NCBI RefSeq assembly: GCF_001613935.1
Contig: NZ_LQCI01000014.1
Coordinates: 193,383-257,382, forward strand
DNA from: Amycolatopsis regifaucium
Lineage (GTDB): Bacteria > Actinomycetota > Actinomycetes > Mycobacteriales > Pseudonocardiaceae
Length of the DNA: 64,000 nucleotides
Direction: 5' to 3'
The notes under the pieces were generated by a model. The model searched no databases. It worked only from the letters and a program-made list of their open reading frames with translations, and was not told the origin of the DNA. The position numbers were made by a program, and so were the translations under genes. Positions 22,356 through 24,023 of the stretch are shown one piece after another. The first letter of the stretch is position 1. The number at the start of each line of letters is the position of its first letter.

Positions 22356-22799
22356 ATGTCGGACCAGGCCACGACGCTGCTCGAAGTGCTACCGGATCTG
22401 GCGGGCAGGTCGGTACTGGTCGTCGGATGCGGCGATGGCCGCTATCCCCGGCTGTTCCGCCGAGAAGGCGCTCGCCGCGTGATCGGTGTGGACGCCGACC
22501 AGGTGCTGATCGCGGCCGCGCAGCGCGAAGAGGAACGCGATCCGAGCGGGATCTCCTACGAGGTCCATCAGCTGGACCGGCTGCCGGTGATGGGGACCTT
22601 CGACATCGTCCTGGCCTTCCTGGACTCCCCCGACCACCTCGGCCGCATCGCCGCGAGCCTGGTGACGGGCGGACATCTCGTCGTCGTCGCCACGAACGGG
22701 CTCACGCTGGAAAAGGGCCTGCGCGACAACGGTTTCCAGGACATCATGTTGCATCGCCACGAACGCGGCGACGTGCACAGCGCCCGCAAAGGCGCCTGA
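22356..22799 (+). CDS. Small SAM-dependent methyltransferase-like protein
   Basis: 147 residues from ATG 22356. A Rossmann-type glycine motif (RSVLVVGCGDGRYPRLF) is followed by an acidic end of strand 2 (VIGVDADQ) and FDIVLAFLDSPDHLGRIAASLVTGGHLVVVA, the class I methyltransferase pattern. It is shorter than usual (200-250 aa) and lacks a clear substrate-binding cap, so it may be a minimal or degenerate enzyme. It stands alone between two structured intergenic regions; substrate unknown. Confidence 0.75.
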   Translation: MSDQATTLLEVLPDLAGRSVLVVGCGDGRYPRLFRREGARRVIGVDADQVLIAAAQREEERDPSGISYEVHQLDRLPVMGTFDIVLAFLDSPDHLGRIAASLVTGGHLVVVATNGLTLEKGLRDNGFQDIMLHRHERGDVHSARKGA

Positions 22800-22800
22800 G

Positions 22801-22870
22801 TCGCGCACCCTGGTGTCGAACCAGGCTGGCCGGGGCTATGAATCCCGGCCGGTCGCCGGACCGTGCGCGT
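22801..22870 (-). ncRNA. Compact tRNA-like cloverleaf with CAT in the anticodon position
   Basis: Read on the minus strand, the sequence folds into a four-arm structure. The acceptor stem is CGCGCAC with GTGCGCG (7 bp) plus a 3' A. The D-like arm is GGTC-CGGC-GACC. The anticodon-like arm is GGCCGGG ... CCCGGCC with loop ATTCATAGC (reading as U33, CAT, A37 if drawn with a 7-base loop). The T-arm is perfect, CCTGG-TTCGACA-CCAGG, matching the tRNA B box GGTTCGANNCC. It departs from tRNA in lacking T8 and the 8-9 linker, in a four-base D loop, in an A-C mismatch for a 5-bp anticodon stem, and in having no encoded CCA. It could be a degenerate tRNA, a tRNA-like RNA, or a strong hairpin cluster. 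It lies directly after the methyltransferase stop codon. Confidence 0.4.
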
Positions 22871-22872
22871 CT

Positions 22873-22988
22873 GGCGGTGTGGAGCACACGGACCCCACAC
22901 CGCCGCACCGGTACGACGGAACAGGATTCCCCGCCGTGCCGGGGATTTTGGCCTGGAACACGGTCCGGCACGCACGCGCGCCGGACCG
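22873..22988. other. Cluster of stable hairpins next to the tRNA-like element
   Basis: Three stems occur without an ORF that looks coding. GGCGGTGTGG with CCACACCGCC (22873-22904) is the first. The second is TCCCCG with CGGGGA (near 22928-22945). CGGTCCGGC with GCCGGACCG (22961-22988) is the third, extended by an outer GGAAC/GTTCC pairing. Strand of activity is unclear; together with the cloverleaf they make the 22.80-23.07 kb gap a densely structured region. Confidence 0.5.
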
Positions 22989-23035
22989 CTTCGTTCCAGA
23001 AAACAGGGTTCACCGGGAGAAGCGCACCACGAAAA

Positions 23036-23067
23036 AGCCGCCCGTTCCGGTTTCCCGAAGGGCGGCT
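23036..23067 (-). terminator. Rho-independent terminator of the 22-codon ORF
   Basis: On the minus strand AGCCGCCC and GGGCGGCT pair across a 16-base loop and the 3' arm runs into TTTTT. It begins 19 bp after the stop codon of the small ORF at 23087-23155, the textbook position. Confidence 0.8.
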
Positions 23068-23086
23068 CCGCGGCTGCGACGTCCTG

Positions 23087-23155
23087 TCAGGACGACGGCG
23101 GGTAGCCGGTTTTCTCTTTCATACCAAGGGCCATGGCATACCAGCGTCGCGTCAT
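23087..23155 (-). CDS. 22-residue peptide ORF, unknown
   Basis: A minus-strand ORF beginning ATG ACG CGA CGC TGG TAT, coding for MTRRWYAMALGMKEKT followed by GYPPSS and TGA. A strong Shine-Dalgarno (GGGAGGA) is placed 4 bases before the ATG, and an intrinsic terminator follows. Another terminator separates it from sdhB upstream, so it should have its own promoter in the 60 bp before it. The peptide is basic at the front, has Trp-Tyr and three Met residues in the middle and a Pro-Pro-Ser-Ser end. I do not recognise a family with certainty. It could be a small functional protein, a leader peptide, or a modified-peptide precursor; no maturation enzyme is adjacent. Confidence 0.6.
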   Translation of the reverse strand: MTRRWYAMALGMKEKTGYPPSS

Positions 23156-23215
23156 GTGTCCTCCCTCGGTGGTGTGCGGTAAGTGTGCAACGAGCCGGTG
23201 AGCACGGGCAAACGA

Positions 23216-23266
23216 TTAAAACCCGAGTGGTGATGACGGTTGGAACCGTCATCACCACTCACGGGT
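23216..23266 (-). terminator. Terminator of the succinate dehydrogenase operon
   Basis: GAGTGGTGATGACGGTT (23225-23241) and its exact complement at 23244-23260 form a 17-bp stem with a two-base loop. On the minus strand the stem is followed by CGGGTTTTAATCG. It starts 10 bp after the sdhB stop codon. Confidence 0.85.
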
Positions 23267-23270
23267 TTTT

Positions 23271-24023
23271 CTACTTGTCCCGCCGGAAAAGCTTGTTCCC
23301 CAGCCACACGATGGGGTCGTACTTCCGGTCCGCGACGCGTTCCTTCATCGGGATGAGCGCGTTGTCGGTGATGTGGATGCCCTCCGGGCACACGTCCGAG
23401 CAGCACTTGGTGATGTTGCAGTACCCGAGCCCGTGTTCCTCCTGCGCCGCGTCCCGCCGGTCGGCGACGTCGAGGGGGTGCATTTCGAGTTCGGCGATGC
23501 GCATGAGGTACCGGGGCCCGGCGAAGGCCTCCTTGTTCTCCTCATGGTCGCGCACCACGTGACAGGTGTTCTGGCACAGGAAGCATTCGATGCACTTGCG
23601 GAACTCCTGCGAGCGCTCGACGTCGACCTGCTGCATCCGGTAGTCCCCCGGCTTCAGCTCCGGGGGCGGGGTGAACGACGGGATCTCACGGGCCTTGGTG
23701 TAGTTGAACGACACGTCGGTCACCAGGTCGCGGATCACCGGGAACGTCCGCATCGGGGTCACGGTGATGACCTCGTCCTCGGTGAAGGTCGACATCCGGG
23801 TCATGCACAGCAGCCGCGGTTTGCCGTTGATCTCCGCCGAGCACGAACCGCATTTGCCCGCCTTGCAGTTCCACCGCACCGCCAGATCCGAGGCTTGGGT
23901 GGCCTGCAACCGGTGGATGATGTCGAGCACGACCTCGCCTTCGTTGACCTCGACGCTGTAGTCCTGCAGCTCACCCGAGTCGGCGTCGCCACGCCAGACC
24001 CGGAAACTCGCCTTGTAGCTCAT
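23271..24023 (-). CDS. sdhB: Succinate dehydrogenase iron-sulfur subunit (Sdh1 type)
   Basis: 250 residues. It carries electrons from the flavoprotein to the membrane anchor. The [2Fe-2S] site is in NCKAGKCGSCSAEINGKPRLLC; the [4Fe-4S] and [3Fe-4S] ligands are in CIECFLCQNTCHVVRDHEE and CNITKCCSDVCPEGIHITDNAL. The ATG start overlaps the end of sdhA by 4 bp. It is most similar in layout to M. tuberculosis Rv0247c. Confidence 0.96.
   Translation of the reverse strand: MSYKASFRVWRGDADSGELQDYSVEVNEGEVVLDIIHRLQATQASDLAVRWNCKAGKCGSCSAEINGKPRLLCMTRMSTFTEDEVITVTPMRTFPVIRDLVTDVSFNYTKAREIPSFTPPPELKPGDYRMQQVDVERSQEFRKCIECFLCQNTCHVVRDHEENKEAFAGPRYLMRIAELEMHPLDVADRRDAAQEEHGLGYCNITKCCSDVCPEGIHITDNALIPMKERVADRKYDPIVWLGNKLFRRDK

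Follow-up and report, generated by a model that had tools for sequence, protein, structure and literature searches.

A compact 69-nt tRNA-Met gene of Amycolatopsis regifaucium, probably left from a tRNA gene array, and its relatives in Actinobacteria

A tRNA-Met(CAU) gene of 69 nt lies on the minus strand of a 64,000-nt stretch of the Amycolatopsis regifaucium genome (hereafter the window; contig NZ_LQCI01000014.1). It folds into a cloverleaf with a reduced core and belongs to a covarying family that is linked to tRNA gene arrays and is also present in viral contigs. The reading we favour is that the gene probably encodes a working, core-reduced tRNA-Met of the elongator type, a remnant of an eroded array whose spare tRNAs would back up translation when normal tRNAs are damaged.

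Results

The gene and its arms occupy the following positions.

22869 to 22801, minus strand: compact tRNA-Met(CAU) gene, 69 nt; discriminator A at 22801; CCA not encoded; 100 bits with model R1
22863..22869, minus strand: 5' half of the acceptor stem, pairing with 22802-22808; pair 6-63/65 and pair 7 covary
22851..22862, minus strand: D arm, 4-bp stem and 4-nt loop CGGC; 3 of 4 pairs with double-sided changes among 77 distinct sequences
22829..22849, minus strand: anticodon arm, 7-bp stem and 7-nt loop; each of the 7 pairs shows a double-sided change somewhere, 92.4% of cells paired (77 distinct sequences)
22838..22840, minus strand: anticodon CAT, kept in 77 of 77 distinct homologues
22809..22825, minus strand: T arm, 5-bp stem and loop TTCGACA; 100% of cells paired, 2 of 5 pairs with double-sided changes

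The first-pass annotation of this DNA had described a minus-strand cloverleaf here, and the cloverleaf is confirmed with a span one base shorter than it gave. Its four nested stems are readable directly from the sequence (acceptor 7 bp, CGCGCAC/GTGCGCG; D 4 bp; anticodon 7 bp; T 5 bp), and so are the departures from tRNA rules that it listed at position 8, in the D loop and in the anticodon stem. The D stem abuts the acceptor stem without a linker, leaving bases 8-9 absent, the D loop has 4 nt, and the anticodon stem has 7 bp. A single base separates the D arm from the anticodon stem, the anticodon loop is 7 nt long (TTCATAG), and the variable region has 3 nt. For the 70-nt strand the folding energy is -42.2 kcal/mol (z -4.32), a value equalled by 0 of 200 shuffles. 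The predicted fold shows a 9-nt anticodon loop, because the top pair of the 7-bp anticodon stem is A.C in the window copy.

Chance is an unlikely source of these stems, as had been supposed. A blueprint fixed after the family had been seen was scanned over both strands of the window and found 22 of 23 pairs at 22869-22801 and at most 19 at any other position; in a first-order Markov control of 39,997,280 positions, 22 pairs were reached once. Since the blueprint was settled in this order, the comparative evidence is the stronger part.

The tRNA finders proposed for checking the element gave divided answers. ARAGORN reports tRNA-Met(cat) at 22800-22869 as its only tRNA call in the window, and the Rfam tRNA model (RF00005), run over the whole window at the gathering threshold, has no match there. 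At a loose threshold (up to E 10), the region 22600-23300 has 17 Rfam matches, with no tRNA among them and none reaching its gathering score. The host genome has 49 tRNAs over the Rfam cut-off and 50 Rfam tRNA matches up to E 1, and the compact gene is absent from the latter. Four ordinary CAU tRNAs are encoded by the host, so the compact gene would not be needed for normal growth. With canonical tRNAs the gene shares a 7-bp acceptor stem, a 5-bp T stem, a 7-nt T loop with C56 and an A73-type discriminator end; it lacks bases 8-9, a D loop of ordinary size, a 5-bp anticodon stem and a match to RF00005. These features agree with the earlier statement that it is not an ordinary tRNA. The compact gene probably works like a tRNA yet is non-canonical by these features.

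Compensatory base changes in relatives had been proposed as a check, and they are present in all four stems, the opposite of the outcome that would speak against the element. In an alignment of 7 sequences made with MAFFT alone and not fitted to a model (A1), double-sided changes occur in 6 of 23 pairs, and all four stems are represented. The larger alignment (A3) holds 84 matches out of 85 sources, including 5 of the 18 near-identical window-site loci; it is nearly gap-free, 79 of the 84 are exactly 69 nt long, and 77 sequences are distinct. Among the 77, with a 7-nt anticodon loop, 96.5% of cells pair (acceptor stem 96.5%, T stem 100%), double-sided changes are seen in 16 of 23 pairs, and covariation scores 0.405, compared with 0.164 when shuffled and at most 0.090 when slid, although A3, like the alignment of tRNA-Ala described below (A5), was fitted to its model and leans toward structure. 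The 7-bp anticodon stem with its 7-nt loop is itself backed by covariation in these sequences. Left out of the covariation count were L066-L070, L109-L111, two viral contigs and the match in genome G025 (L151, 42 bits, below threshold).

The letters conserved in the family are those of a working tRNA: A73 and C56 are each found in 77 of the 77 distinct sequences, T33 in 75, and a D loop CGG[C/T] in 73. Comparison of 18 Amycolatopsis-type species (one genome each) at the window site shows purifying selection on the gene. Of its 69 sites, 2 vary, and the mean pairwise difference is 0.006. The leader varies at 20 of 80 sites (0.074) and the methyltransferase gene next door at 156 of 325 (0.145), and farther upstream the difference is 0.12-0.31.

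The bacterial Met determinants listed in Table 1 of PMC9976931 include CAU, A73, G2-C71, C3-G70, U4-A69 and A5-U68. CAU and A73 are present in all 77 distinct sequences, G2-C71 in 75/77 and C3-G70 in 76/77. The two remaining determinants differ, with position 4-69 being G-C in 73/77 and position 5-68 being C-G in 74/77. Descent from an initiator tRNA may be considered: some members have an anticodon arm like that of an initiator, but the 1-72 mismatch of initiator tRNAs is absent (C1-G72 in 77/77).

An identical 69-nt layout is found in array tRNA-Ala(tgc). A model built from three array tRNA-Ala sequences matches 62 of 386 genomes at E <= 0.001. Of these, 42 reach at least 50 bits (41 at least 79); the other 20 score 36-39 bits over 73 nt and look like ordinary tRNAs. 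By comparison of the lists, 40 of the 42 compact-Ala genomes also carry Met-model matches, and in some genomes, for example G252, the two genes lie on different contigs. The Ala model has 44 matching places with 50 bits or more; alignment A5 combines 21 of these (19 distinct) with the window sequence, and G3.U70, listed as an AlaRS determinant in PMC9976931 (Table 1), is present in 19 of the 19 distinct sequences. The Ala model alone recovers the window Met gene at full length with 50.3 bits. We regard the Ala form with G3.U70 as the best indirect sign that the layout may be that of a chargeable tRNA. Other tRNA genes of the 80 loci show reduced D arms as well, less uniformly, with calls that place the anticodon at position 32 or lower: Trp 15/19, Cys 21/25, Ile 2/5, His 1/9 and Tyr 1/16.

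A search of 60 genomes recovered the window site and diverged copies. Larger sets of genomes were searched with a covariance model built from 7 sequences. Under the stricter filters used in searches of more than 40 genomes, which may miss weak members, matches at E <= 0.01 were found in 107 of 390 genomes of the host's taxonomic family, 106 at 61 bits or more and one at 42. Samples of the order, class and phylum gave matches in 24 of 397 genomes (18 of these in the host's own family), 3 of 345 (own genome included) and 7 of 356 (own genome the only one held certain), respectively. The best matches outside the host's family, L064 (66 bits) and L065 (62 bits), are both in one other family of the order. 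Scanning named genomes with a pattern yielded 56 stretches, the majority in Amycolatopsis and Lentzea and the rest in Saccharothrix, Actinophytocola, Actinokineospora, Kibdelosporangium, Streptoalloteichus, Allokutzneria and some others. Several weak model matches were set aside: L284 and L285 are 73-nt ordinary tRNAs, L067/L110 is called as a 75-nt tRNA, L288 has no Met tRNA call, and L069 has no tRNA call and is probably a chance match. ARAGORN detects the compact gene in 1 of the 18 species at the window site. We considered C54 as the cause of its missing the sister copies and dropped this idea, because ARAGORN does call L097, which carries C54.

The homologues are mostly found in tRNA clusters, and the first-pass annotation missed this link to tRNA arrays. 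Other tRNA genes are clustered with the compact Met gene at 70 of the 75 loci examined, and it stands alone at 5. Chained at 1 kb, the clusters at the 75 loci range from 1 to 25 genes, with 20 or more in 2 loci, and tRNA-Cys follows the compact Met gene within 200 nt in 22. A composite order, drawn by eye, is Trp, Tyr, Arg, Gly, Glu, Arg, Asp, Pro, Glu, Phe, Leu, Thr, Leu, Gln, Leu, Ser, Ile, Ser, Lys, Arg, Asn, Ala, Val, Val, compact Met, Cys; the complete array is found in no single locus. All loci were found through the Met gene, so the array context is conditional on it and the compact Met is not proven to be the most often kept array gene. At the window site, 7 of the 18 species have an upstream tRNA-Arg(acg) and 10 a tRNA-Glu(ttc); the window has neither. 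A tRNA array unit is defined in PMC5966550 as 20 or more tRNA genes with a density of no less than two per kb, and the window, with one tRNA gene only, falls outside this definition. Two plasmid arrays (Arthrobacter and M. alvei) carry a tRNA-Met of ordinary size in place of the compact form, and the reduced form is therefore not general to arrays.

Protein neighbours of the family are varied. Among 41 flanks, called with a home-made GC3-filter ORF caller, no ORF cluster is shared by more than 7, and thus there is no obligatory partner gene. Ten proteins beside five arrays showed nothing recurrent: DpdA, an APH-fold kinase, WD40, a metallo-beta-lactamase fold and DUF418 were seen once each, four proteins were without a match, and so was one more (L107). 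The DpdA-like gene (deazaguanine in DNA), at L086:3281-4171, lies upstream of a 26-gene tRNA array. Two kinds of gene with a bearing on RNA were found in or beside arrays.

L086:7826-9436, L087:6472-8082 and L111:7979-9610: TROVE/Ro60-like genes (Pfam PF05731), in or beside tRNA arrays; two directly before compact tRNA-Ala
L109:10343-11638: RtcB RNA ligase gene inside a tRNA array, a single case (G593, weaker family match of 50 bits)

In a search of 40 genomes, 22 have a TROVE gene and 3 have one within 10 kb of a family match, against about 0.05 expected by our own arithmetic; one of the three (G719) goes with a weaker family match of 42 bits. These TROVE and RtcB neighbours are leads toward RNA repair, not proof of it.

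In the window, the compact gene lies between a methyltransferase-like ORF, convergent to it and ending at 22799, and an upstream gene ending at 23271, which from reading its sequence we take to be a fumarate reductase/succinate dehydrogenase iron-sulphur subunit (sdhB-like). Three hairpins precede the tRNA.

22873..22904, minus strand: conserved leader hairpin just 5' of the tRNA, seen by eye in the 18-species alignment
22953..22999, minus strand: long perfect hairpin dividing the leader from the missing tRNA positions; its letters vary across species and pairing is apparently kept, as judged by eye without pair counting
23031..23069, minus strand: terminator-like hairpin followed by a T run at the upstream end of the block, seen by eye and absent from the consensus-scan listing

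The hairpin at 22953-22999, which lies between the two upstream tRNA positions, could be a processing or regulatory RNA. A consensus scan of 22600-23400, a weak test in high-GC actinobacteria, found no promoter-like site. In the relative G021, whose sdhB-like protein is 98.4% identical, the flanking genes are about 0.11 kb apart and the whole block is absent, compared with a gap of 0.47 kb in the window; this may reflect either a loss in G021 or a gain in the window. A strong two-way terminator-like hairpin lies at 23224-23261, directly after the sdhB-like gene. Upstream of the tRNA, a small ORF of 22 codons (MTRRWYAMALGMKEKTGYPPSS) with a GGAGG-like site ahead of it lies at 23087-23155 on the minus strand; a similar end (LGMxEKxGSPP) is seen by eye in the alignment of sister species, and the ORF has no NCBIfam match.

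Members of the family also occur in viral DNA. The family model matches 2 of 50 viral contigs preselected by a loose pattern (64 and 59 bits). On a 28.6-kb contig, the compact Met gene lies between an HNH endonuclease gene and a portal gene, with a terminase gene beyond, and its acceptor letters, compared by eye, are unlike those of the bacterial family. For the second contig, none of six proteins that were compared has a PHROG match. The window locus has no match over 80% of the query in plasmids, nor does a 69-nt homologue in phages and plasmids. When a 25-gene array was compared with 589 phage records and 95 plasmid records, coverage stayed below 80% in all of them, and the array is thus contained in no annotated phage or plasmid record. 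Phage Jace, a candidate from these comparisons, has only the T arm in common, carried by a tRNA-Met of ordinary size.

Discussion

These observations suggest that a cluster of spare tRNA genes once stood at this site and that the window gene is probably all that remains of it. The array would have consisted of spare tRNAs of the kind borne by phages and mobile elements, with the window gene left last. Its RNA would be trimmed and then receive CCA; MetRS would charge it through CAU, A73, G2-C71 and C3-G70, and the charged tRNA would read AUG. The 4-nt D loop could still present GG to the T loop. Because most of the normal D loop and core is absent, the RNA could stay intact when nucleases or toxins damage ordinary tRNAs, and translation would continue. 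That phage tRNAs offset tRNA-cleaving host defence is established for T5-like phages and retron-Eco7 (PMC11555353), and array tRNAs of mycobacteria are suspected of the same role (PMC12803027). The protective role is suggested by this analogy and by four neighbouring genes, three for TROVE and one for RtcB, of which two accompany weaker members of the family. In view of the lack of a promoter-like site, the two Met determinants that differ and the ordinary-sized Met in two plasmid arrays, we hold the charged-tRNA part more firmly than the protective part.

We also put forward, tentatively, a wider proposal. Actinobacteria and their phages may possess a second tRNA architecture, used for Met, Ala and perhaps further isotypes and fixed at 69 nt, in which bases 8-9 are missing, the D loop has 4 nt and the anticodon stem has 7 bp. 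Such tRNAs would be charged and decode while evading nucleases or toxins that recognise the normal core; hosts might keep single genes as standing protection from tRNA damage.

Some chance, though a small one, must be given to a conserved tRNA-like RNA that does not decode and acts as a decoy for tRNA-cutting nucleases or a synthetase, or as a Y-RNA-like partner of Ro60 (TROVE) proteins. The non-canonical core, the excess of TROVE genes within 10 kb and the RtcB gene in one array all fit such a role. A decoy, however, would not require the anticodon, U33, the discriminator, the synthetase identity pairs and the G3.U70 of the Ala form, all of which are kept. Against a Y RNA, no Y-RNA family of Rfam matches at the gathering threshold in the window or in 7 array loci, the 104 matches in the latter being tRNA and tmRNA only, and the window genome is without a TROVE match.

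It is less probable still that the RNA is a lysidine-modified tRNA-Ile(CAU) that reads AUA as isoleucine instead of AUG. Such a tRNA has the same anticodon letters and A73, and an array needs both kinds. C4-G69, listed as a bacterial Ile pair in PMC9976931 (Table 1), is nevertheless found in 0 of 77 compact sequences, and one ordinary host CAU tRNA (L260) has it.

We consider it very unlikely that the gene is a functionless relic of a tRNA array kept by chance, as one option of the first-pass annotation would have it. The apparent loss of adjacent tRNA genes in the window, the lack of a promoter-like match and the absence of the whole block from G021 are what a relic would predict, but 2 varying sites among 69 in 18 species while the flanks change, together with compensatory changes in four stems across the family, argue against it. 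An attachment-site scar of an integrated element, the other unsupported option, is scarcely credible: tRNA genes are common integration sites and close relatives either have the whole block or, like G021, lack all of it, but the same site is kept in 18 species with whole tRNA genes alongside in 17, homologues sit in mostly different neighbourhoods (at most 7 of 41 flanks share an ORF cluster), and the 69 nt are complete and covarying. From the first-pass annotation we therefore retain the stems, the broken rules and its third option, a functional tRNA-like RNA, which we judge to be right.

tRNA arrays and unusual bacterial tRNAs are already known. The array units of mycobacteria and of their phages and plasmids likewise group spare tRNAs that serve many amino acids, and they occur in chromosomes as well as on phages and plasmids; the window differs in having one gene, and the accessible parts of PMC5966550 and PMC12803027 do not describe a fixed 69-nt Met/Ala layout for array units. 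T5-like phages likewise carry spare tRNA genes on mobile DNA, and the role proposed here is the same; it was tested there (PMC11555353), whereas the compact form is core-reduced, is also fixed in chromosomes and would have this role by analogy. Reduced D loops and altered core contacts are shared with tRNA-Sec (4-nt D loop) and with D-arm-less tRNAs of metazoan mitochondria. According to PMC7609411, the D stem of tRNA-Sec is 6 bp long and its acceptor domain 13 bp, whereas the compact form has 4 bp and 12 bp and an anticodon stem of 7 bp, and the D-arm-less mitochondrial tRNAs are not bacterial. In the literature searched, which was partly open access, we found no description of a fixed core-reduced 69-nt layout common to two isotypes; this does not prove that none exists.

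The cores of bacterial tRNAs show little variation, and a selected, covarying family of two isotypes that has lost bases 8-9 together with most of the D loop therefore makes a minimal core testable. Compact tRNA genes are probably under-annotated, since the window copy escapes the Rfam tRNA model and the gene has an ARAGORN call in 1 of the 18 species at this site. If the protective role is true, single surviving genes would offer a simple system for studying why phages and hosts keep spare tRNAs.

Two further forms of D-arm reduction were seen. Several array tRNA-Cys genes, for example L075:9970-10041, have a 6-bp D stem with a 3-nt loop and are slightly tRNA-Sec-like. In two genomes of the same phylum (G1026 and G1087), L286 and L287 are lone CAU tRNAs with a differently shrunken D arm and the anticodon at position 30, perhaps an independent reduction.
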